NCBI GenBank assembly: GCA_020848855.1
Contig: JADLHH010000022.1
Span: forward strand, 1-19,284
DNA: 19,284 nucleotides
Direction of reading: 5' to 3'
Source: Anaerolineae bacterium
Lineage (GTDB): Bacteria > Chloroflexota > Anaerolineae > Aggregatilineales > Phototrophicaceae
Shown here: piece after piece, positions 1-17,204 of the stretch
Position numbering within the stretch: position 1 is the first letter of the stretch
Layout: every line of letters starts with the position of its first letter
Translations under genes and position numbers: made by a program
Notes under the pieces: model-generated
Seen by the model: the letters and a program-made list of their open reading frames with translations, nothing else
Database searches by the model: none
What the model was told of the DNA's origin: nothing

Positions 1-1181
1 ATCGTGCCCGGCTGGGCGACAATCCAGCGGGCAGGCGTGGCGACGTAGTACCCGCCCGATCCGGCGACCGCGTTCTTGTAGACGACCAGCGGGCGCTTTT
101 TCGCCAGCTCGTCGAGCGCCGAGGTCATGGCTTCGGCAGCGACGACCGCGCCGCCGCCGCTGTCCATGAACAGCACCACCGCCGCCGTGCTGTCGTCCTG
201 CATCAGCGCCCGCACCTGACGCACCACCGTCTGGTCGCCTGCCCGCTCGCCGCCGACGAATGGGATCGGCAGGTCGATAGGCGGGTTCGCACTCTCGCCG
301 GGCGTCATCAGCCCGGTGATGGTGAGCAGCGCGACATGCTGATCGCCGCGCGGCGCGCGCCCGAGCACTAGTTTTCGGTCGGCGTCTTTCCAGAGGTGCA
401 GGTACTTGCCCTTCAGGTAGGCGGCGAAGCCTTCTTCGTTGACGACGGCGTCGACGTAGCCCGCTTTGAGCGCCGGCTCGGCGACGTGCGGCGACGTGTC
501 GATCATCGCCTGCGCCTGCTCCAGCGTCCAGCCGCGCCCGGCGGCGATGCCGTCGCGGATCATGGCGTAGCGCGAGTCGATGAGCCATTCCAACTGCTCG
601 CGCCCTTCCGGCGAAATCGTCTCGCGCGAGAACTGGTCGAGCGCGCCCTTGTACGGCGTGATCGCCACCACGTCGAGCGCCACGCCGATGGTGTCGAGGG
701 CGTCCTTCAGAAAGATCGCTTCCTGCCGCAGCCCGACGGTCATCAGTTCGCCGCCCGGCTGAAGCAGAATCGAGTCGGCGGCGCTGGCGACGTAATACCC
801 CGCCGTGTCGTAGGTCTGGGCGAAGCAGACGACACGCTTACCCGCCGCCCGCAGGCGCGTGATCGAGCCGCGCAGCGTTTGTAAATCCGCCAGCGGCAGC
901 GCCAGCCCGCTGATTTTGAGGATGACGTTCTGGGGGCGTGGGTCGGCGGCAATCCGCCGGAAGATGCGGTCAAGCTCCCACAGGCTGAGCGGCGGCGCCC
1001 CCTGTACGCGCTGGCGCAGCCAGCCGCGCGTGTCCGGCAGGGCGGGCATGGACGCCGGGAGTGTCAGGATGATGGTGTCGAGGTCTTTGTAGCGGGCGCG
1101 CAGGCGGTTGCGCAGCGCCAGCCGCAGCCGGAGAAACACACGCAGCAGGCGGAACGGATTCAGGCGCTTCAGCCGACGCAT
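1..1181 (-). CDS. sppA: Signal peptide peptidase SppA-type serine protease (S49), 3' end missing
   Basis: This is the N-terminal 393 residues of a double-domain S49 protease; the rest lies beyond the window edge. The family cleaves leftover signal peptides at the membrane with a Ser/Lys dyad whose Lys and Ser come from the two tandem domains. Both are visible: PYKGALDQFSRE around K178 matches the general-base segment, and GSGGYYVATPA around S375 matches the nucleophile segment. A degenerate first-domain copy (TAGYYVASAAD, about 126-136) lacks the Ser, as expected for the two-domain (67K) type, usually near 600 aa. The N-terminus is very basic (MRRLKRLNPFRLLRVFLRLR) and has no clean transmembrane helix, so it may sit peripherally on the membrane, unlike E. 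coli SppA. The ATG has an AAAGGAA ribosome binding site about 10 bases upstream. It is divergent from the histidine kinase gene at 1287. The family is secure; the symbol is given by family. Confidence 0.9.
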   Translation of the reverse strand, partial: MRRLKRLNPFRLLRVFLRLRLALRNRLRARYKDLDTIILTLPASMPALPDTRGWLRQRVQGAPPLSLWELDRIFRRIAADPRPQNVILKISGLALPLADLQTLRGSITRLRAAGKRVVCFAQTYDTAGYYVASAADSILLQPGGELMTVGLRQEAIFLKDALDTIGVALDVVAITPYKGALDQFSRETISPEGREQLEWLIDSRYAMIRDGIAAGRGWTLEQAQAMIDTSPHVAEPALKAGYVDAVVNEEGFAAYLKGKYLHLWKDADRKLVLGRAPRGDQHVALLTITGLMTPGESANPPIDLPIPFVGGERAGDQTVVRQVRALMQDDSTAAVVLFMDSGGGAVVAAEAMTSALDELAKKRPLVVYKNAVAGSGGYYVATPARWIVAQPGT

Positions 1182-1217
1182 CGAACTCAGGTTCCTTTCG
1201 AACCTCGCCAATGATAG

Positions 1218-1246
1218 TCTATAGCATCTTCAAAAGCGAAAGTGAA
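1218..1246 (-). promoter_or_regulatory. Candidate sigma-70 promoter for the SppA gene
   Basis: Read on the minus strand, TTCACT (-35) and TATAGA (-10) are separated by exactly 17 bases. The start point would fall near 1211, giving a leader of about 30 bases before the ATG at 1181. It overlaps the oppositely directed promoter candidate of the kinase gene. Consensus matches are moderate, so this is inference. Confidence 0.45.
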
Positions 1247-1257
1247 TGTAGTATAGA
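1229..1257 (+). promoter_or_regulatory. Candidate sigma-70 promoter for the PAS-GAF histidine kinase
   Basis: TTCAAA (-35) and TATAGA (-10) lie 17 bases apart. Transcription would begin near 1264, just upstream of the GAGGAA ribosome binding site at 1277-1282. It interleaves with the divergent promoter candidate for the SppA gene, so the two would compete for polymerase. Inferred from consensus and spacing only. Confidence 0.45.
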
Positions 1258-1286
1258 GATAACAGGAGTTTGCGTCGAGGAAATAA

Positions 1287-3860
1287 ATGGAGTTGAGGGG
1301 TTTTGTGCGCGCTTTCCTGCGCTGGTTATTAGAGCCTGCGGCATCGCTCAGCGAGCCAGAGGATAGACACCAGGCGCGCACGGTTGCCGCGACTCTGCTC
1401 CTGACGCTCGTGCTGATCGTCGTGCCGCTGTTCCAGCGCAGCAGCAGCACCGAGACGCCAATCCCCTGGCTGCTGACCCTGCTCGGCATCGGCGTCGCCT
1501 ATGCTGCCAGCCGGACGCGCTACTACCGGCAGGGCGCATTCATCGCCATCCTCACGCTGTGGCTGCTGCCAACGTATACTATCCTGCTGATCGGTATGAG
1601 CAGCTCGGTGTCGTTCGTGCTGGCGATTGGTCGGCTGCTGCTGCTGTCGCTGCTGATGACCTACATCATGATTTCGCTGCGGGCGAGCATCGTGCTGGGC
1701 GCGGCGATGCTGATCATCTTCCTGATCAACCCGACCGCGCCGGGTACGACGCCATCGCTTCAGCGCGCGTCCGATTTCCTCCTGACGACCGCGTCGATTT
1801 TCATGATCTTCGTGATCACCCGCCAGTACGAGCTGGCAAAGCGGCGCGAGGCGGAAGCCGCCCAGCGTGCTACCGAGGCACTATACCGGGCGATTGTCGA
1901 ATCGCAGACCGAAATGCTCGTCCGCTGGCTGCCGGATACCACGCTGACGTTCGTCAACGACGCCTACTGCCGCTACTTCGGCAAGCCGCGTGAAGAATTG
2001 ATCGGCACGAAGTTCAGCCAGGTCGTATTCGGGGACGATTTTTCGGTCATCCGCAGCGCCTTCGGAACGATCACGCCCGAAAAGCCAACGATCACCTATG
2101 AGCACCGCGTCATCACGCCGGCGGGCGCGGTCGGCTGGCTGCAATGGACTGACCGCGCCATCTTCAACGCGCGCGGCAGCATTATCGAATACCAGTCCGC
2201 CGGGCGCGACATCACCAGCCTGAAGCGAGCGGAAGAAGCCGAGCGCGAGGAGCGCCAGTTCGCGGAAGCCCTGATCGCCACCGCCGCGCTGATCTCCAGC
2301 ACGCTCGATCTGGACGAGGTGCTGGATCGCATCCTGGAGCGGATCGCGGCGCTCAGCCCGTTAAACTCCGCTGAAGTGATGCTGATCGACGACGGAACTG
2401 CCGGCATCGTGCGAACGATCGGCTATCAAAAACCCGAAGACCGCGCCGCCTTGATGAACCTGCGCCTCGGCATCGGGCAGGCGCGCAACCTGCGAACGAT
2501 GGTCGAGACCGGCAAGCCGCTCATCATCGACGACGTGCGCGAGGACTCGGAATGGATCGACGTGGAAGCCAGCCGCTGGATTCGCGCGTCGTGCGGCGCG
2601 CCGATCCGGCTGGAAGGCGAGACTATCGGTTTCCTGAACATCACCAGCGACATGCCCGGCGCGTTCACCGACCAGCACGCCCGGCGCTTGCAGGCGTTCG
2701 CAGACCAGGCAGCAATCGCGCTGCGCAACGCGCGGCTCTACGACAAAGTCAGCCGGCACGCGGACGAGCTTGAGCGGCAGGTGAGCGAGCGCACCGCCGA
2801 ACTCGACCTGGAACGCCAGCGGCTGCGCGTCATCCTCGACGGGACGGGCGAAGGCATGTTCTATACCGAGGACGACCGGATACAGTTCGCGAACGTCGCC
2901 TTCTACAACCTCACCGGTTACACGCAGGGCGAACTGGTCGGGCAAAGCTATCACCAACTTTATGAGGAAAATTCACAGATTCCGATCCTGGACAGCGCCC
3001 ACGACGAAGTCTCTCGGCACGGCATCTGGCGCGGCGAATTCCACATCCGCCGCAAGGACGGCTCGCTTTGCCCGGTCGGGCTGACCATCTCGCTGATTGG
3101 GACGAACGGCGCGCGCCCGTTCCGCGCCGTGACGGTCGTGCGCGACATCAGCCGTGAAAAGATGCTGCAAGCCCAGCGCACCAATTTCGTCGCCTACGCC
3201 TCGCACGAACTGCGCACGCCGATCACCAATATGAAAACGCGGCTCTACTTGCTGCGGCGGCGTCCTGAATTCCTGGAGGAACATCTCGTCATCCTGGACG
3301 AAGTGACCGAGCGGATGCGGCAGCTTGTCGACGACCTGCTCGATATGTCGCGGCTGGAGCACGGCATCATCCCCATGCGACGGCAGGATGTCAACGTGCA
3401 GGAAGTGGTGGAGACGGTGATCACGCTCCAGAAGCCGGAAGCCGAGCGCAGCAGCCTCGCGCTCGACTGGATGCTCTCGCCGGATCCGATTCTGGTTTCT
3501 GGCGACCGCGAGCGGCTGATTCAGGTGCTGACCAACCTCGTCACCAACGCGATCAACTACACGCCCGCCGGCGGCAGGATCAACGTGAGCGTGCGCCAGG
3601 ACGACAGCAAAGCCTGCATCGAAGTGGCGGACACCGGCATCGGCATCGCGCCGGACAACCTGCCGCACATCTTCCAGCCGTTCTACCGCGTCGTCAGCAG
3701 CGTGGAAGGCACCGGTCTGGGGCTGAGCATCGCCAAGCAGATTGTCGAGCTGCACGGCGGGACGCTGGGCGTGCACAGCGAGCTGCAGCGCGGCAGCGTC
3801 TTCACAATCACCCTGCCGCTGCAGCAGCCCACGCAGAACAACCACGCCCACGCGGACTGA
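1287..3860 (+). CDS. Membrane sensor histidine kinase (MASE-like TM domain-PAS-GAF-PAS-HisKA-HATPase)
   Basis: An 857-residue two-component sensor kinase. Residues about 31-178 hold five or six hydrophobic segments forming a membrane sensor domain. A short helical linker leads to PAS (about 195-312), GAF (about 325-482), a coiled coil (484-515, ERQVSERTAELDLERQRL) and a second PAS (about 515-622). The transmitter is complete: H-box YASHELRTPITN with phosphoacceptor H640, N-box NLVTNAINYTP, G1 box DTGIGIAP (D782) and G2 box GTGLGLS (808-814). There is no receiver or HPt domain, so phosphate should go to a separate response regulator; none is encoded in the window. The ATG at 1287 is preceded by GAGGAA at good spacing. 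The gene ends 58 bases before the metallophosphoesterase-like gene and may be cotranscribed with it. The signal is unknown; PAS and GAF suggest an internal small-molecule or redox cue, which is inference. Confidence 0.95.
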   Translation: MELRGFVRAFLRWLLEPAASLSEPEDRHQARTVAATLLLTLVLIVVPLFQRSSSTETPIPWLLTLLGIGVAYAASRTRYYRQGAFIAILTLWLLPTYTILLIGMSSSVSFVLAIGRLLLLSLLMTYIMISLRASIVLGAAMLIIFLINPTAPGTTPSLQRASDFLLTTASIFMIFVITRQYELAKRREAEAAQRATEALYRAIVESQTEMLVRWLPDTTLTFVNDAYCRYFGKPREELIGTKFSQVVFGDDFSVIRSAFGTITPEKPTITYEHRVITPAGAVGWLQWTDRAIFNARGSIIEYQSAGRDITSLKRAEEAEREERQFAEALIATAALISSTLDLDEVLDRILERIAALSPLNSAEVMLIDDGTAGIVRTIGYQKPEDRAALMNLRLGIGQARNLRTMVETGKPLIIDDVREDSEWIDVEASRWIRASCGAPIRLEGETIGFLNITSDMPGAFTDQHARRLQAFADQAAIALRNARLYDKVSRHADELERQVSERTAELDLERQRLRVILDGTGEGMFYTEDDRIQFANVAFYNLTGYTQGELVGQSYHQLYEENSQIPILDSAHDEVSRHGIWRGEFHIRRKDGSLCPVGLTISLIGTNGARPFRAVTVVRDISREKMLQAQRTNFVAYASHELRTPITNMKTRLYLLRRRPEFLEEHLVILDEVTERMRQLVDDLLDMSRLEHGIIPMRRQDVNVQEVVETVITLQKPEAERSSLALDWMLSPDPILVSGDRERLIQVLTNLVTNAINYTPAGGRINVSVRQDDSKACIEVADTGIGIAPDNLPHIFQPFYRVVSSVEGTGLGLSIAKQIVELHGGTLGVHSELQRGSVFTITLPLQQPTQNNHAHAD

Positions 3861-10556: not shown

Positions 10557-10586
10557 GAGAACAGATTGGGTTCTTTCGTGGTGATC

Positions 10587-13022
10587 ATGACGACCAACAA
10601 GCGACGAACGCCTCAACTTCGCAAGCGGCAGCCACTCCGCCCGCGCGACCAGCACGACGCGGCGCTGGCGGGCATTATTGATCTCAGCCGCATCCTCAGT
10701 TCGAATCTCGACATCAACACCATCTGGGACGCGCTGCACGATCACATCAACCTGACGTTCGACACGACCTCGTTCTTCGTCGGCGTGTACGAATACGAGC
10801 GCGACCGGCTGACGCTGCCGTTGGTCTCGGAAGACGGGCTGCGCGTCGATTACGAGCCGATCCCGGTGTGCGGCATGAGCCGGGCGGTGATGACGCACGG
10901 CATTGAACTGTACGTGGGGGATGCGCAGGCGGAGCAGGAACGCCTGCAGGCGCTCGGCGTCGAGCCGGACGAGCGCGAGCCGGGCTGCTGGGCGCGCTCG
11001 TGGATCGGCGTGCCGCTGCGCAGCCGCCAGAGCGAAGTCATCGGCTTGATCGCGCTGCAGAACGCCGTGCCGGGCAGCCTTACCGACCGCGATCTGACAC
11101 TGCTGATGGCTATCGCCGCGCCGCTGTCGCTGGCGCTCGACAACATCCGGCTGACCGACAACGACCGCGAGCGACGGCTGATCGCCGGAGCGCTGGTGGA
11201 GATCGGGCAGCTTGCCGGGGCACACCTGCGCTACGACGACGTGCTGGATGGCGTGCTTGACCAGCTTCAGCGGGTGATCAGCTACGACAGCGCGGCAATC
11301 CTGCTGCCAACCCCCGACGACGAGCATTTGCTGATCGTCGGCGCCAGCCACGACCCCGACACCTTCGCCAAAGGCAGCGGGCTGCGCTATGCCGATTCCA
11401 GCCCGCTGGCGCAGTCGGTCGCGTCGCAGCAGCCATTCGTTGTCGCCGACGCCGACGATTTCGCGGCATGGTGGGAAGGGAACGCCCCGCCGACGGACAA
11501 CCTGCGCTCGTGGCTGATCGTGCCGATGCCGGTACAGGGCAAGGTCAGCAGCGTGATCCTGTTGGGCAGGTTCGCGCCGGTCAGCTATACCCAGAAAGAA
11601 GCCAGCAACGCCTTCGCGCTGGCGCGGCAGGGCGCGATCGCGCTGGAGACGACCCGGCTGCAGGCGCAGGCGCAAGCCAGCCTGGAGATGTTCCGCAAGC
11701 GCGCGCACCGGCTGGCGTCGATCAACCGCATCACCAGCGTGATCACGTCATCGCTGGACCGCGACGAAGTGTTTCGGACGACCGCGCAGCTTCTCGCCGA
11801 ATTGTTCGAAGCCGACCACTGCGGCATCCTGATGATCGAGCAGGAGCGAGGCGAAATCGTGCTGGCAGCCGAATACCCGGACACCGCCAACCTTGGGATG
11901 GGCGTGCGCATCGCCGGGAACGCGACGATGAACACGCTGACCTACTACGGCACGGCGGTCAGCATCGAAGACGCCGAAGACAGCAGCGTGGATGACCCCA
12001 CCCGCGACGCCCTGCGACGCATCGGCGCGCGTTCGACGCTGATCGCCCCGCTGATCGTGCGCGACAAGCTGATCGGCACGATCAACGTCGACATGACCAG
12101 CACGCGCCGCCGCTTCAGCGAAGACGAGCGCGAGATGCTGGTGATGATCGCCGGGCAGGTGGCAATCGCCGTCTCGCACGCCGACCTGTACGGCGACGCG
12201 CTGACGCTCAGCCGCCTGCGGAGCGCCTTTCTCGCCAACATCAGCCACGAGCTGCGCACGCCGCTCACCGCCATCATCGGCTACAGTGACATGCTGCTGA
12301 GCGGGTTCTACGGGGCGCTCAACGAGCAGCAGAGCGATCGCGTCAACCGCATCAACGGCAGCGGCAAGCACCTGCTCGACATGATCGACGACGTGCTCAA
12401 CCTGTCCAGGCTGGAAGCCGGGCAAATCACGCTGTCGCGGACAGCGATCCACACGTCCAGCGTGCTGAGCGAAGTCATCGACGAGATTACGCCGAGCGCG
12501 CACGAGAAGAATCTGGCGCTGGAAGTCCGCATCGCTCCCGACGAGCCGCCAGCGCGCGCCGACCGCCAGTATCTGCGGCAGGTGATCGCCAACCTGCTGC
12601 GAAACGCGGTCAAGTTCACGCCAGCGGGCAGCATCCGGGTCGAGGTGCAGATGGCCGCTTTCGAGGACGGGCGTTCACCGCAGATCAGCGCGCCGAATCA
12701 CGTCGTCGTGCCGGATGGCGACTGGGTGGCGCTGCGCGTCAGCGACACGGGCATCGGCATCAAGCCAGAAGACCAGGGCATCATCTTCGAGAGTTTCCGC
12801 CAGGTGGATTATTCGACGGCGCGCCAGTACGGCGGCACCGGGCTGGGGCTGGCGATCACGCGGCGCGTGGTCGAACTGCACGGCGGCTGCCTGTGGGTCG
12901 AAAGCGAAGTCGGGGCGGGCAGCACGTTCACGGTGCTGCTGCCAACAGCGAAGCCCAGCCTGATCGACGATTTCGACGTGTCGGCGGTGGGAACAAATAC
13001 AGCGCGCGCTCGAAAAGGCTGA
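10587..13022 (+). CDS. Soluble sensor histidine kinase (GAF-GAF-GAF-HisKA-HATPase)
   Basis: An 811-residue kinase without transmembrane segments, so cytoplasmic. Three GAF domains occupy about 28-188, 205-355 and 385-535, joined by helical linkers, the last with VITSSLDRDEVF. The transmitter has H-box FLANISHELRTPLTAIIGYS (phosphoacceptor H554), N-box NLLRNAVKFTP (N673), G1 DTGIGIKP (D720), FESFRQVD and G2 GGTGLGLAITRR. There is no receiver domain. An in-frame TTG at 10566 is possible, but the ATG at 10587 is preferred because GTGGTGATC just before it matches the extended anti-Shine-Dalgarno complement. GAF domains bind small ligands, cyclic nucleotides, bilins or haem; the chromophore cysteine context of phytochromes is not evident. 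It stands alone between divergent membrane protein genes and paired hairpins, with no adjacent response regulator. Confidence 0.93.
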   Translation: MTTNKRRTPQLRKRQPLRPRDQHDAALAGIIDLSRILSSNLDINTIWDALHDHINLTFDTTSFFVGVYEYERDRLTLPLVSEDGLRVDYEPIPVCGMSRAVMTHGIELYVGDAQAEQERLQALGVEPDEREPGCWARSWIGVPLRSRQSEVIGLIALQNAVPGSLTDRDLTLLMAIAAPLSLALDNIRLTDNDRERRLIAGALVEIGQLAGAHLRYDDVLDGVLDQLQRVISYDSAAILLPTPDDEHLLIVGASHDPDTFAKGSGLRYADSSPLAQSVASQQPFVVADADDFAAWWEGNAPPTDNLRSWLIVPMPVQGKVSSVILLGRFAPVSYTQKEASNAFALARQGAIALETTRLQAQAQASLEMFRKRAHRLASINRITSVITSSLDRDEVFRTTAQLLAELFEADHCGILMIEQERGEIVLAAEYPDTANLGMGVRIAGNATMNTLTYYGTAVSIEDAEDSSVDDPTRDALRRIGARSTLIAPLIVRDKLIGTINVDMTSTRRRFSEDEREMLVMIAGQVAIAVSHADLYGDALTLSRLRSAFLANISHELRTPLTAIIGYSDMLLSGFYGALNEQQSDRVNRINGSGKHLLDMIDDVLNLSRLEAGQITLSRTAIHTSSVLSEVIDEITPSAHEKNLALEVRIAPDEPPARADRQYLRQVIANLLRNAVKFTPAGSIRVEVQMAAFEDGRSPQISAPNHVVVPDGDWVALRVSDTGIGIKPEDQGIIFESFRQVDYSTARQYGGTGLGLAITRRVVELHGGCLWVESEVGAGSTFTVLLPTAKPSLIDDFDVSAVGTNTARARKG

Positions 13023-13081: not shown

Positions 13082-13262
13082 AAAAGACTATTTGAACTGT
13101 GATGTTTTGCCCCTATTGTGTCTGTGTTAAGTAAAGTTAACAAGTGATGATCGGCGCAGAGCGCCCCGATTCGTCAGAATTCACAAATCACGCTGCGATA
13201 CTGCGGCGCTTCGAAGCTGCCTGCACCGCCTGTTTTAGCCCCGTGTGGTGTGATTCGAAGCG

Positions 13263-13291
13263 TTGGCGCGCGCCGGGGGTTACGCTAATAT
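13263..13291 (+). promoter_or_regulatory. Promoter of the MaoC-like gene
   Basis: TTGGCG (-35, 13263-13268) and TAATAT (-10, 13286-13291) are 17 bases apart. The start near 13298 supports translation from the ATG at 13327 rather than any start further upstream. A TTCGAAGC motif abuts the -35 and has a second copy 44 bases upstream, a possible activator site. Confidence 0.55.
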
Positions 13292-13326
13292 ACAATTTTG
13301 CCGCGCACACAAAGGCAAGTATCGAA

Positions 13327-13785
13327 ATGGGACCCATTGGGCTTTACTTCGAGGATATCGAAATCGGCAGGGTGATGGAGACGCGCGGGCGCACCATCAC
13401 CGAAGCCGATCTGGTGCAGTTCGCCGGGCTGACCGGCGATTACAACCCGATGCACACCGACGCCGAATACATGAAAAGCTCGGCGTTCGGGCAGCGCATC
13501 GCGCACGGGATGCTGACGCTCAGCTACGCCGTCGGGCAGGCGTACCAGCTTGGCTTCATGGAACGTACGGTGATCGCCTTTCGCGGGCTGAGCATGAAAT
13601 TTAGCCTGCCGGTGTTCATCGGCGACACGCTGCACGTCGAACTGACGGTGCGCGAAAAGCAGGAAATGAAGCGCATGGGCGGCGGCTGGGTGACACTCGA
13701 CGTGAAGATCATCAATCAGAATGGAAAAGTCGTGCAGTCCGGCGACTGGACGGTGCTGCTGGCGCTGAAGCCTACGCAGGCGTAG
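13327..13785 (+). CDS. MaoC-like (R)-specific enoyl-CoA hydratase / dehydratase
   Basis: A 152-residue single hot-dog-fold MaoC domain. The hydratase 2 motif is intact: FAGLTGDYNPMHTDAEYMKS with catalytic D38 and H43, then RIAHGMLTLSYAVGQ. This family adds water to trans-2-enoyl-CoA (PhaJ type) or dehydrates 3-hydroxyacyl-CoA; substrate length cannot be judged. Size matches monodomain members that act as dimers. The start is the ATG at 13327, whose product begins MGPIGLYFEDIEIG as in homologues; AAAGG lies about 12 bases upstream and the promoter just before. A longer in-frame opening to 13144 is rejected. It converges on a histidine kinase gene, overlapping its 3' end by 14 bases. No acyl-CoA pathway genes are nearby, so its pathway is unknown. 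Confidence 0.92.
   Translation: MGPIGLYFEDIEIGRVMETRGRTITEADLVQFAGLTGDYNPMHTDAEYMKSSAFGQRIAHGMLTLSYAVGQAYQLGFMERTVIAFRGLSMKFSLPVFIGDTLHVELTVREKQEMKRMGGGWVTLDVKIINQNGKVVQSGDWTVLLALKPTQA
13772..13785. other. Palindrome forming the overlapping stop codons of two convergent genes
   Basis: CTACGCAGGCGTAG is an inverted repeat (CTACGC/GCGTAG around AG). The right arm ends in the TAG of the MaoC gene; the left arm, read on the minus strand, ends in the TAG of the kinase gene. The 14-base overlap of the two coding regions is exactly this palindrome. Both proteins thus end in Gln/Pro-Ala-type tails. Confidence 0.85.
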
Positions 13786-15040
13786 CGACCAGTTCAAGCG
13801 GCAGCGTGAAGGTGAAGACCGCGCCGCTGTCCGGTTGGTTTTCGACCCAGATGCGCCCGCCGTGCGCTTCGACCGCCAGCCGGCAGAACGCCAGCCCCAG
13901 CCCGACGCCGGTCGGGGCGTTGGTGTGGCGGATGCGGTAGAACTTGTCGAAGATTTCCTGCATGTGACTGACGGGGATGCCGGGTCCGGTATCGCTGACG
14001 CTGAAGGCGACGGCATCGTGCCGGACGCGCACGCTTAGCGTCACATGACCGTTGGCGGGCGTGTGCTTGACGGCATTCTCGATCAGGTTGACCAGCACCC
14101 GTGTGATCATGTCGGCGTCGATCTGCACATCAGGCAGTATTTCCGACATTTCGAGCGAGACGGTCTGATCCGCTTCGGAAGCGGCGGGGCGCACCAGTTC
14201 CATCACTTCGTCGAGCAGCGGGCGCAGCGGCGTCCGACGCTTGGTGATCACTCTGCTGCCCTGCTCCAGCACGTCGATATCGAGCAGCCCCTTGACCATG
14301 CGCGTCATCTGCCGGGTACTTTGCATCGCCAGCCGAAGCAGGCTCACGGCGATAGCGCGGTCTTTGACGTAGGCTTCCATGCCGGACAATCCGGTATAGA
14401 TGTTTTGCAGCAAGCCGCGCAAATCGTGATAGGTCATCGACGCGAGATCGCGCCGAAGCTGCTCAATTTCGCTCTGCTCAGACTTCTTCTGCTGAAGCTG
14501 CTCGTAATATTCCTGCGCGTGCTCCGCCTGCGCTTCCAGCCGCTGAGCGCTGAGGGCGTTTTCGTAGGCGGCGGCAATCAAGCCGCCCGCTTCGTCCAGA
14601 AATTCGCTGACGTCATCGCGGAAGTAATCGATCTGTGGGTGCAGCATGATCAGCGCGCCGAGCAGATTGGAGTGGTGCATGAGCGGAATGCCGATTGCCG
14701 AGCCTTGCCAGCTTTCGGGCAGGTGCGCCCAGCGGGCGTCGGCGCGGGTGTCGCGCACGTAGATCGTATGCTGCCCGTGCTGCACAAAGCCGAGGAAGCC
14801 TTCCGCCAGCAGCATGTGCCACAGCCGCTGCTCGCTGGCAGCTTCCGCGCCGGGCAGCAGGACATCGCGCAGCTCGCCGCCGTCGTCAAACGTCAGGATG
14901 CCGCCCTTGGTCACGTCGAGGGCGGAGCAGGTCATCGAGAGCGCCGTGTACAGGACGTTATTGGCGTCCAGCCCCTGATAGTGCAGGGCACGGGCGAGAC
15001 GATAAAGCCACTCCACTTGCGTCGAACTGCCTTCCGGCAT
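13772..15040 (-). CDS. Cytoplasmic GAF-domain sensor histidine kinase
   Basis: A 422-residue soluble kinase. A GAF domain spans about 10-168, with GSAIGIPLMHHSNLLGALIML typical of its core. A coiled coil of Glu/Gln-rich helix follows (about 165-200), then the transmitter: H-box SMTYHDLRGLLQNI with phosphoacceptor H205, N-box NLIENAVKHTP (N322), G1 DTGPGIP (D350), IFDKFYRI and G2 GVGLGLAFCR. The H-box has Leu where HDLRxPL kinases usually have Pro. There is no receiver domain. It lies downstream of the FHA-FHA-TIR gene on the same strand with a 108-base gap that may hold a weak -10 (TACAAT, complement of 15074-15079), so cotranscription is plausible but not certain. The ATG has only a weak GAGAG upstream. 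The partner regulator is unknown. Confidence 0.93.
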   Translation of the reverse strand: MPEGSSTQVEWLYRLARALHYQGLDANNVLYTALSMTCSALDVTKGGILTFDDGGELRDVLLPGAEAASEQRLWHMLLAEGFLGFVQHGQHTIYVRDTRADARWAHLPESWQGSAIGIPLMHHSNLLGALIMLHPQIDYFRDDVSEFLDEAGGLIAAAYENALSAQRLEAQAEHAQEYYEQLQQKKSEQSEIEQLRRDLASMTYHDLRGLLQNIYTGLSGMEAYVKDRAIAVSLLRLAMQSTRQMTRMVKGLLDIDVLEQGSRVITKRRTPLRPLLDEVMELVRPAASEADQTVSLEMSEILPDVQIDADMITRVLVNLIENAVKHTPANGHVTLSVRVRHDAVAFSVSDTGPGIPVSHMQEIFDKFYRIRHTNAPTGVGLGLAFCRLAVEAHGGRIWVENQPDSGAVFTFTLPLELVATPA

Positions 15041-15148: not shown

Positions 15149-16357
15149 TCAGTGAAGCTGCATGATCTGAAAGATGAGCTTGTGGAAGCTGGCGGGGTTG
15201 GTTTCGGGGTCGTAAACGGTGGCGCGCAGGTTCGCCAAGCCGCTGGGAAGCGTCTGCGTCGCATCGCGCACGAGCGGGATGACCGGCTTGTTCTGGTTGA
15301 GGAAGTAGCGATACATGAGATGCACATACGCCGAGCCGAGCGCGTTGGGCGACACGACGACGACCATCAGCCAGCATTCGTTGAGCGCCTGCTCGACGGC
15401 GATGCGCCAGTCGTCGCTGCCGAGCGACAGGTATTGATCCACCCACGCATTCAGGCGCGTATCCTGCAGGCGCACCAGCAGCGGCGCGACCAGCGTCTCC
15501 CAGTCTTCGCGGGCGTACACAATCATGAAATGGTCGTCCAGCGCGCCGGGAACCAGCCCGGTGGCGCGCGCCGCCTGTTTCCTGCGCGTGGGGTCGACGC
15601 GGAAGAAACTGGCGAGGGTATCGGTCTTGTCGAAGGCGAACTCTGCCGGACGGACAACCGGGGTCTCTTCCTCGTCGTTATCGTTATCGCCGTCGCGCAC
15701 GACGTACTGAAGCTGCACCACCGTGCCGAGCCGGAGCAGATCATTCGGCTCCAGGCATTGGGAGCCAGTTACGGGTTCGCCGTTGACGTATGTGCCGTTG
15801 GTCGAGCCGAGGTCTTCGGCATAGTACGTGCCGTTCGAATAGCGCAGGTGCAGGTGGCGGCGGCTGACTTCCGGGTCCTGAATCACGAGATCGTTGGACA
15901 CGTCGCGCCCGACCGCCTGCGACTTGCCGCCGAGCGTGTACACCGTGCCGATGGCGGGACCGTTGACCATGCGCAGGCTGTAACGCGCACCGTCTTCGAC
16001 CGGCGCGATTCGTTCGAGGATGGCGTTGGCGTGCCCGTTCATCAGCGGGGCATCGCCGTATTCGAGCGTGATGGTATCGCCCAGTTCGATCAGCACACCG
16101 TTCTGCAGCAGCCAGGGCGTGACCACGCGCTGCCCGTTGACGAATGTGCCGTTGCTGGAACTCAGATCGTGGACTTCGTAATTGCCCGTCAGGCGGACGA
16201 GGCGACAGTGTTCGCGGCTGACCTCGTTATCGCGGATGACGATGTTATTCTTGCTGCCGCGCCCAATCGTGATCTCGTCGGCTTCGAGATCAAATACTGC
16301 CCCTGGTGTTGGTCCCCGGCGCATGACCAGGCGTAGCATAAGGTTACCCGCGATCAC
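15149..16357 (-). CDS. FHA-FHA-TIR fusion protein
   Basis: A 402-residue soluble protein. FHA1 (about 8-103) shows IGRG (R33), SREH (47-50) and SSSNGTFVNG (N69). FHA2 (about 127-218) shows VGRD (R151), SRRH (165-168) and GSTNGTYVNG (N187). Both keep the phosphothreonine-binding Arg, Ser and Asn. An acidic linker (220-235, DGDNDNDEEE) leads to a TIR/TIR_2 domain (about 274-402): HFMIVYAREDWE, LNAWVDQ, DDWRIAVEQALNEC, VVVVSPNALGS and KPVIPLV. The glutamate that acts in TIR NADases follows a W/Y-V-x-K-E pattern, as in SARM1 E642; here that segment reads SAYVHLMYRYF, placing M348 at the site. NAD+ cleavage is therefore doubtful and a scaffold role more likely. The start is GTG at 16357 or ATG at 16339; neither has a clear ribosome binding site. 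A histidine kinase gene follows on the same strand. Confidence 0.88.
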   Translation of the reverse strand: MIAGNLMLRLVMRRGPTPGAVFDLEADEITIGRGSKNNIVIRDNEVSREHCRLVRLTGNYEVHDLSSSNGTFVNGQRVVTPWLLQNGVLIELGDTITLEYGDAPLMNGHANAILERIAPVEDGARYSLRMVNGPAIGTVYTLGGKSQAVGRDVSNDLVIQDPEVSRRHLHLRYSNGTYYAEDLGSTNGTYVNGEPVTGSQCLEPNDLLRLGTVVQLQYVVRDGDNDNDEEETPVVRPAEFAFDKTDTLASFFRVDPTRRKQAARATGLVPGALDDHFMIVYAREDWETLVAPLLVRLQDTRLNAWVDQYLSLGSDDWRIAVEQALNECWLMVVVVSPNALGSAYVHLMYRYFLNQNKPVIPLVRDATQTLPSGLANLRATVYDPETNPASFHKLIFQIMQLH

Positions 16358-16652: not shown

Positions 16653-17204
16653 TCAGGATTCGCTTTTGGCAACGCCTGAACTGATGGAAGGAAGGTCGGT
16701 GGCGGTTTCTTCGTCGTCGCCGCTGTTGAGCGGCGCGGTCTGCGGCAGGCTGGCAGAACGCTGGTAGCCGGTGAACGGCGTGATCGCGCCGGAGTAGCGC
16801 GGGTTCGAGGAACTGTAGGCGTAGCTTTCAGCGTCGTTGGTCAGCCCATGCGCGACCGGCGACAGCAGCAGCATATTCAGGCGGGCGTCGAGCGCGCGCT
16901 GCGTTTCCAGCGGCGTGCGCATGAAGTAGCGGTTCCAGATCATGCCGCTGTTGGGCGCGAGCACGCTGAGCAGCGGGATCGTCTCGGACTGGATGTAGCC
17001 GACGAGCGCGCCCACGCTCATGTTGATCGGCGTGGCGACCAGTTCCAGTGTCCCCGGCAGCACGACGAAGCCGTGCAGGCGCATGTAGCCGATTTCCTGC
17101 GCCTTCACCACCACGCCGATCACAACTTCGGCGCAGCTATGACTTTCGAACAGCGGCTGTTCATGCTCGGTTGGGATTCGCAGATAGACCGGCTGGTCGC
17201 TCAT
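16653..17204 (-). CDS. Catalytically degenerate REP/IS200-type (Y1) transposase-fold protein
   Basis: A 183-residue protein matching the REP-associated tyrosine transposase (RAYT, Y1_Tnp) domain pattern from start to finish. EHEQPLF matches the opening RxxxQPxF region, EIGYMRLHGFVVLPG the strand before the active site, IWNRYF the LWQRRYY-like region, and LLLSPVAHGLTNDAESYAYSS (split 112-132) the NPVRAGL...YxxSS block. The active site is gone: where the family has NHVHLL, with the HUH histidines, this protein reads GTLELV (T52, E54), and the helix that should bear the nucleophilic Tyr (IQSETIPLL) has none. A disordered, acidic and Ser/Thr-rich tail follows (about 145-183). The frame is intact and no terminal repeats flank it, so this looks like a domesticated DNA- or RNA-binding derivative, not a live element. 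Homology is by pattern, not search. Confidence 0.7.
   Translation of the reverse strand: MSDQPVYLRIPTEHEQPLFESHSCAEVVIGVVVKAQEIGYMRLHGFVVLPGTLELVATPINMSVGALVGYIQSETIPLLSVLAPNSGMIWNRYFMRTPLETQRALDARLNMLLLSPVAHGLTNDAESYAYSSSNPRYSGAITPFTGYQRSASLPQTAPLNSGDDEETATDLPSISSGVAKSES

Follow-up and report, generated by a model that had tools for sequence, protein, structure and literature searches.

The locus raises the question of whether a TIR domain joined to two FHA domains is still an enzyme or serves another purpose. To our knowledge, bacterial TIR domains are discussed mainly as NAD+-consuming enzymes. The gene lies in a 19,284-nucleotide stretch of DNA, referred to here as the window. The initial annotation had proposed that two FHA domains are fused to a C-terminal TIR domain with a Met at the position of the catalytic Glu, and that the protein is a scaffold that assembles on a phosphorylated partner. 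The observation was confirmed and is extended here from one protein to a family, and the interpretation as a whole is partly supported.

The domain architecture was borne out by Pfam profiles, which identified two FHA stretches (E value of 3.5e-42) and a TIR_2 domain at residues 277–383 (E value of 7.2e-13), all above the curated cut-offs. The GTG codon that opens the reading frame is probably the wrong start, because 91 of the 119 aligned sequences (120 listed of 2228 matches) have their first residue in the column of residue 7, which is an ATG in the window (Table 1). FHA matches were listed in the top 50 of the first fold search, and therefore the TIR domain was folded alone. The predicted structure and the structure matches agree on the TIR fold. 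A promoter scan yielded no site, and five terminator-like sites were found on the plus strand, compared with a mean of 3.3 (standard deviation 2.1) in shuffled sequence.

Table 1 Features of the FHA-FHA-TIR gene and of the adjacent kinase gene, in window coordinates.
Feature	Residues	Position	Strand	Basis or remark
FHA-FHA-TIR open reading frame		15149..16357	(-)	402 codons, GTG start
Probable true start (ATG)	7	16337-16339	(-)	Residue 7 column; gives 396 aa
FHA1	9-102	16052..16333	(-)	Pfam FHA; model strands
FHA2	125-221	15695..15985	(-)	Pfam FHA and Yop-YscD_cpl
Linker before TIR	222-262	15572..15694	(-)	Model confidence low at 225-246
Conserved linker Thr	247	15617-15619	(-)	End of low-confidence segment
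TIR domain	270-401	15155..15550	(-)	Pfam TIR_2 277-383; model, structure matches
Met codon, catalytic-Glu column	348	15314..15316	(-)	
Val codon, FISY Ser column	280	15518..15520	(-)	Ser in 21/22 paralogues
GAF histidine kinase		13772..15040	(-)	Pfam GAF and HATPase_c; 108 bases past FHA-FHA-TIR stop codon

The FHA fold is a reader of phosphothreonine. The Arg, Ser and Asn of the FHA site, which are presumably the phosphothreonine-binding residues, are present in the window protein as R33, S47 and N69 of FHA1 and R151, S165 and N187 of FHA2. The predicted phospho-sites are thus those of phosphothreonine-binding FHA domains, and the description of both domains as intact-looking stands. Within the alignment (119 sequences; 120 listed of 2228 matches), R151, S165, R166, H168, T186, N187, G188 and N192 of FHA2 are each conserved in 119/119, and S185 in 112. 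The corresponding counts for FHA1, among the same 119 aligned of 120 listed, are 119 for H50 and G70, 118 for R48, 116 for S47, 108 for R33 and 86 for N69, such that N69 is replaced in 33 sequences and R33 in 11.

The variable linker between FHA2 and the TIR domain carries a Thr at column 247 in 95 of the 119 aligned sequences (120 listed of 2228 matches) and a Ser in five. Of 172 distinct linkers, 147 contain an acidic residue–Thr pair, compared with a mean of 101.6 (standard deviation 5.8, maximum 116) after shuffling, an excess that is inflated by shared ancestry. The conserved Thr could be the phospho-ligand itself. In GarA and OdhI, a phosphorylated Thr motif lies beside the FHA domain. 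These two proteins are relatives of the FHA-FHA-TIR protein by sequence and fold of the FHA domain; however, they contain one FHA domain and no TIR domain, and their motif is only loosely similar. Identity of the linker motif with that of GarA is not claimed, as the strict pattern occurs in only 5 of 201 sequences. Each of six host genomes contains between 21 and 80 Pkinase matches.

Residue 348 of the window TIR is Met. In the profile match it aligns without gaps to the WxxxE Glu of AbTir, which is taken here to be the catalytic Glu of that enzyme, and it also stands opposite the Glu of related TIR domains (YVHLMYRYF in the window compared with YVRLEYRYF). The alignments with the paralogues and sister TIRs are likewise free of gaps, which upholds the original by-eye placement of the Met and rules out misalignment. 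The alignment of 119 sequences comprises the window protein and 118 of the 120 proteins listed of 2228 matches (P0057 and P0081 were left out) and leans to close relatives; its residue 348 column contains 35 Ala, 28 Met, 23 Gln, 15 Glu, 8 Leu, 5 Ile, 4 Ser and 1 Lys. With Met in 28 of these 119 proteins, an error confined to a single contig is ruled out. A broader set of 201 sequences (aligned proteins, further proteins and loci) gave 174 distinct TIR domains once identical ones were collapsed, L044 (without TIR match) and L047 (gene cut by the contig end) being left out. Only 17 of the 174 have Glu at this column, and loss of the Glu thus extends over most of a conserved family. The FISY Ser, Val280 in the window protein, is lost in 166 of the 174 and kept in eight; Ser280 and Glu348 occur together in a single family member.

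Two control sets retain the Glu. The other TIR domains of six family-carrying genomes have Glu in 21 of 22 cases and Ala in one; these 22 paralogue TIRs come from 20 hand-picked stretches, mostly high-scoring, and are not a random draw. Glu is present in 19/19 TIR domains found with the nearest paralogue TIR, that of L068 (response regulator-GAF-TIR), which is itself one of the paralogue controls, such that the two sets are not independent. Eighteen of these 19 sister TIRs belong to other architectures and all 18 keep Ser280 and Glu348. The remaining match, P0156, is itself an FHA-FHA-TIR protein with Ala280 and Glu348. On a TIR tree calculated without column 348, a branch with a support of 98 separates the 22 paralogues from all other sequences, and scoring the column as Glu or not Glu requires 10 changes; the tree has few columns and long branches, hence how often the Glu was lost is uncertain, and it may have been regained. 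The window TIR belongs to a starred set of 39 rows in which Glu is absent. Loss of the Glu is a family-wide feature, seen in most members examined, while paralogues and sister TIRs keep it. The window protein retains the TIR fold and profile match; it has Met348 in the third helix where a catalytic TIR NADase has Glu, and shares the absence of the catalytic Glu with scaffold TIRs. These residue patterns suggest that the TIR domain of the family has likely lost NAD+ catalysis.

The domain is nonetheless under constraint. Columns Y281, W286, W305, Q308, W317 and A324 are invariant in 174/174 TIR domains. The dN/dS ratio of the TIR ranges from 0.024 to 0.128 in the seven computable of eight locus pairs, and in six of the seven it is below that of the remainder of the protein. 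Three pairs are drawn from the same three loci, dS is above 1 in several cases and saturated in some, and none of the pairs comes from the clade of the window. In the tested pairs the TIR domain is under purifying selection, and it is kept although the catalytic residue is not. The open frame, the low TIR dN/dS in the tested pairs and the presence of Met in the three closest relatives rule out decay, and the TIR of the family looks like a retained pseudoenzyme.

The family is confined largely to one lineage. Among 396 genomes drawn from the class, 14 have a match at an E value of 1e-40. All 14 recur within one Chloroflexota order, 54 of whose 154 genomes have a match; in a few of the 54 the alignment spans the FHA part only. 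Each of six genomes has one whole-profile match (6/6), alongside numerous separate matches to FHA or TIR domains. A contig scan with the single FHA-FHA-TIR protein as query returned no relative, and the same scan with the alignment as query returned 47 public loci, 45 of them with Chloroflexota-type titles. The titles of L025 and L047 name Pleurocapsa and Bacteroidetes, respectively; the genes resemble those of Chloroflexota loci and the bins are possibly misassigned. Sister TIRs were considered as a fixed partner of the family and not seen as such, with matches in 38 of the 154 genomes, many of them being the family's own TIR.

The histidine kinase that had been noted to follow the gene is a GAF kinase by Pfam. 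A search of the open reading frames of 50 loci with the window kinase gave 21 best matches, all of which are same-strand kinases downstream of an FHA-FHA-TIR gene, the farthest at 2.0 kb. These score at least 165 bits and the next match scores 112 bits. The GAF histidine kinase is thus an orthologous partner gene of the FHA-FHA-TIR gene. Neighbours were counted at 51 loci, comprising the 47 public loci, L058, L065, L067 and the window, some of which have little flank, with profiles built from the same loci that they counted. On the same strand, 26 of the 51 have a histidine kinase no more than 1.6 kb downstream; the other 25 have none inside that distance, some through short flank.

A Gld-type ABC transporter operon, made up of genes for an ABC ATPase, a permease, a GldG-like protein and a DUF4340 protein, is represented upstream by one or more of its parts in 20 of the 51 loci and by all four in 13; in L046 the four parts were identified by Pfam as ABC_tran, an ABC2 membrane protein, ABC_transp_aux and DUF4340. 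No part was found in 31 of the 51 loci, some through short flank, which rules out the operon as a universal neighbour, and in the window none lies within 2.9 kb upstream of the FHA-FHA-TIR gene. DUF4340 has between one and three matches, usually one, in 133 of the 154 genomes of the order. At least 17 of the 54 family genomes, a set that overlaps with the 51 loci, have it 283–1012 bases upstream of the FHA-FHA-TIR gene on the same strand. According to the available part of one article, GldG and GldA make up an ABC transporter, and both have been linked to Flavobacterium gliding (PMC9127263).

Taken together, these data make it somewhat probable that the family is a lineage-specific adaptor controlled by phosphothreonine, in which the TIR domain binds proteins and no longer cleaves NAD+. 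The two FHA domains would dock onto phosphothreonine, either of a kinase substrate or of their own linker. The TIR domain, lacking NADase catalysis, would be kept as a surface for protein–protein contact or assembly. Phosphorylation of the linker or of a partner would control FHA docking, to which the TIR would add contact or assembly. The adaptor may act together with the GAF histidine kinase encoded beside it. In many relatives it may also act with the neighbouring Gld-type ABC transporter, perhaps controlling the activity or clustering of the latter. Enzymatic inactivity, the phospho-ligand, TIR assembly and contact with kinase or transporter are what we infer from these patterns. A bolder version, which we hold only tentatively and regard as rather unlikely, is a MyD88-like bacterial adaptor, in which a TIR domain that gave up catalysis for a scaffold role in a single Chloroflexota order is attached to two phosphothreonine readers and joins Ser/Thr kinase signalling to the partner histidine kinase and the Gld-type ABC transporter, with the linker Thr as phospho-switch. 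The replacements of FHA1 N69 and the loci that lack the neighbours slightly weaken both versions.

Ligand binding is often retained by pseudoenzymes, and the TIR domain might accordingly be a nucleotide sensor, binding NAD+ or a cyclic ADP-ribose signal without cleavage and thereby controlling FHA docking. The TIR fold with W305, D307 and W317 is kept; however, Ser280 has been lost along with the Glu in most of the family, and this alternative is improbable. Slightly less probable again is an NADase that still works with a different acidic residue, E322 or E327 for example. These are present in 98 and 117, respectively, of the 119 aligned sequences (120 listed of 2228 matches), but the model places both in the helix 315–327 before the third strand, whereas the usual Glu sits on another helix, 343–354, such that they would probably lie away from the pocket. 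TIR domains are common in bacterial defence, and a DNA methylase gene directly follows the FHA-FHA-TIR gene in 3 of 50 loci (L027, L028 and L046). That the protein belongs to a so far undescribed system of anti-phage defence or cell death is nevertheless very improbable given the single full-length match in each of the six genomes, the recurrence of kinase and transporter as neighbours, and the PADLOC result. Run on the FHA-FHA-TIR and kinase proteins only, PADLOC gave weak hits, namely PDC-S66 at 19.1 bits and ThsB at 13.9 bits over the TIR domain, and a best hit of 22.5 bits for the kinase, in keeping with the original remark that no recognised defence gene is adjacent.

The adaptor reading has partial parallels among known systems. 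SARM1, AbTir and the TIR-APAZ protein of SPARTA are TIR NADases, whereas the window TIR has Met for the catalytic Glu and Val for the FISY Ser. The nearest TIR subfamily found, with response regulator-GAF-TIR, kinase-TIR and WD40-TIR architectures, has the DW, DQ and EYRYF stretches in common with the family, yet keeps Ser280 and Glu348 (18/18) and has other partner domains. In the accessible text of a TIR survey, Glu is described as rare in the TIR domains of MyD88 and TIRAP, with the caution that Glu frequency is not always in step with activity (PMC7075850), and part of another article describes these TIR domains as forming scaffolds (PMC8635717). MyD88 and TIRAP are animal proteins, whereas the present family is bacterial and joined to FHA rather than death domains. 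Rv1747, a Mycobacterium ABC transporter, has two FHA domains and a disordered linker and clusters upon phosphorylation, as stated in the available portion of PMC9312465. Two FHA domains with a linker are likewise found in the FHA-FHA-TIR protein; however, Rv1747 combines FHA and transporter in one protein and has no TIR domain, while in the family these are separate genes and the window has no transporter. A literature search, with most subscription journals outside its reach, found no paper on an FHA-TIR architecture or on FHA proteins of Anaerolineae/Chloroflexi with TIR or histidine kinase, and the accessible text of the TIR survey contains no occurrence of FHA (PMC7075850). The family keeps the TIR fold and surface and drops the catalytic Glu, and sister TIRs keep the Glu, which makes an independent bacterial origin of scaffold TIRs testable. 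The family further places phosphothreonine reading in one setting with a histidine kinase and, among relatives, with a Gld-type ABC transporter.

Several variants of the architecture and gene order were observed. The genes at 518–1306 (+) of L084 and 444–1301 (+) of L078 have the domains in the opposite order, with the TIR ahead of the FHA domain; they keep the catalytic Glu, and their genomes also carry the family. FHA-FHA genes without TIR match occur at the family position in L044 (6992–8215, +) and immediately before the FHA-FHA-TIR gene in L007 (3014–3793, +). In P0143, a sister-subfamily TIR that keeps its Glu is joined to a Ser/Thr kinase. The DNA methylase of L046 carries a RAMA domain. 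In the window, a 183-residue open reading frame (16653–17204, −) occupies the spot where relatives often have the Gld operon; it has a weak match to REP-associated tyrosine transposases (33.2 bits, cut-off 80) and none among the open reading frames of the 50 loci. A MaoC-like gene (13144–13785, +) and a three-GAF histidine kinase gene (10566–13022, +) are convergent to the FHA-FHA-TIR/kinase pair, and MaoC-like genes and large GAF kinases recur downstream of relatives, for example in L011, L012 and L013.
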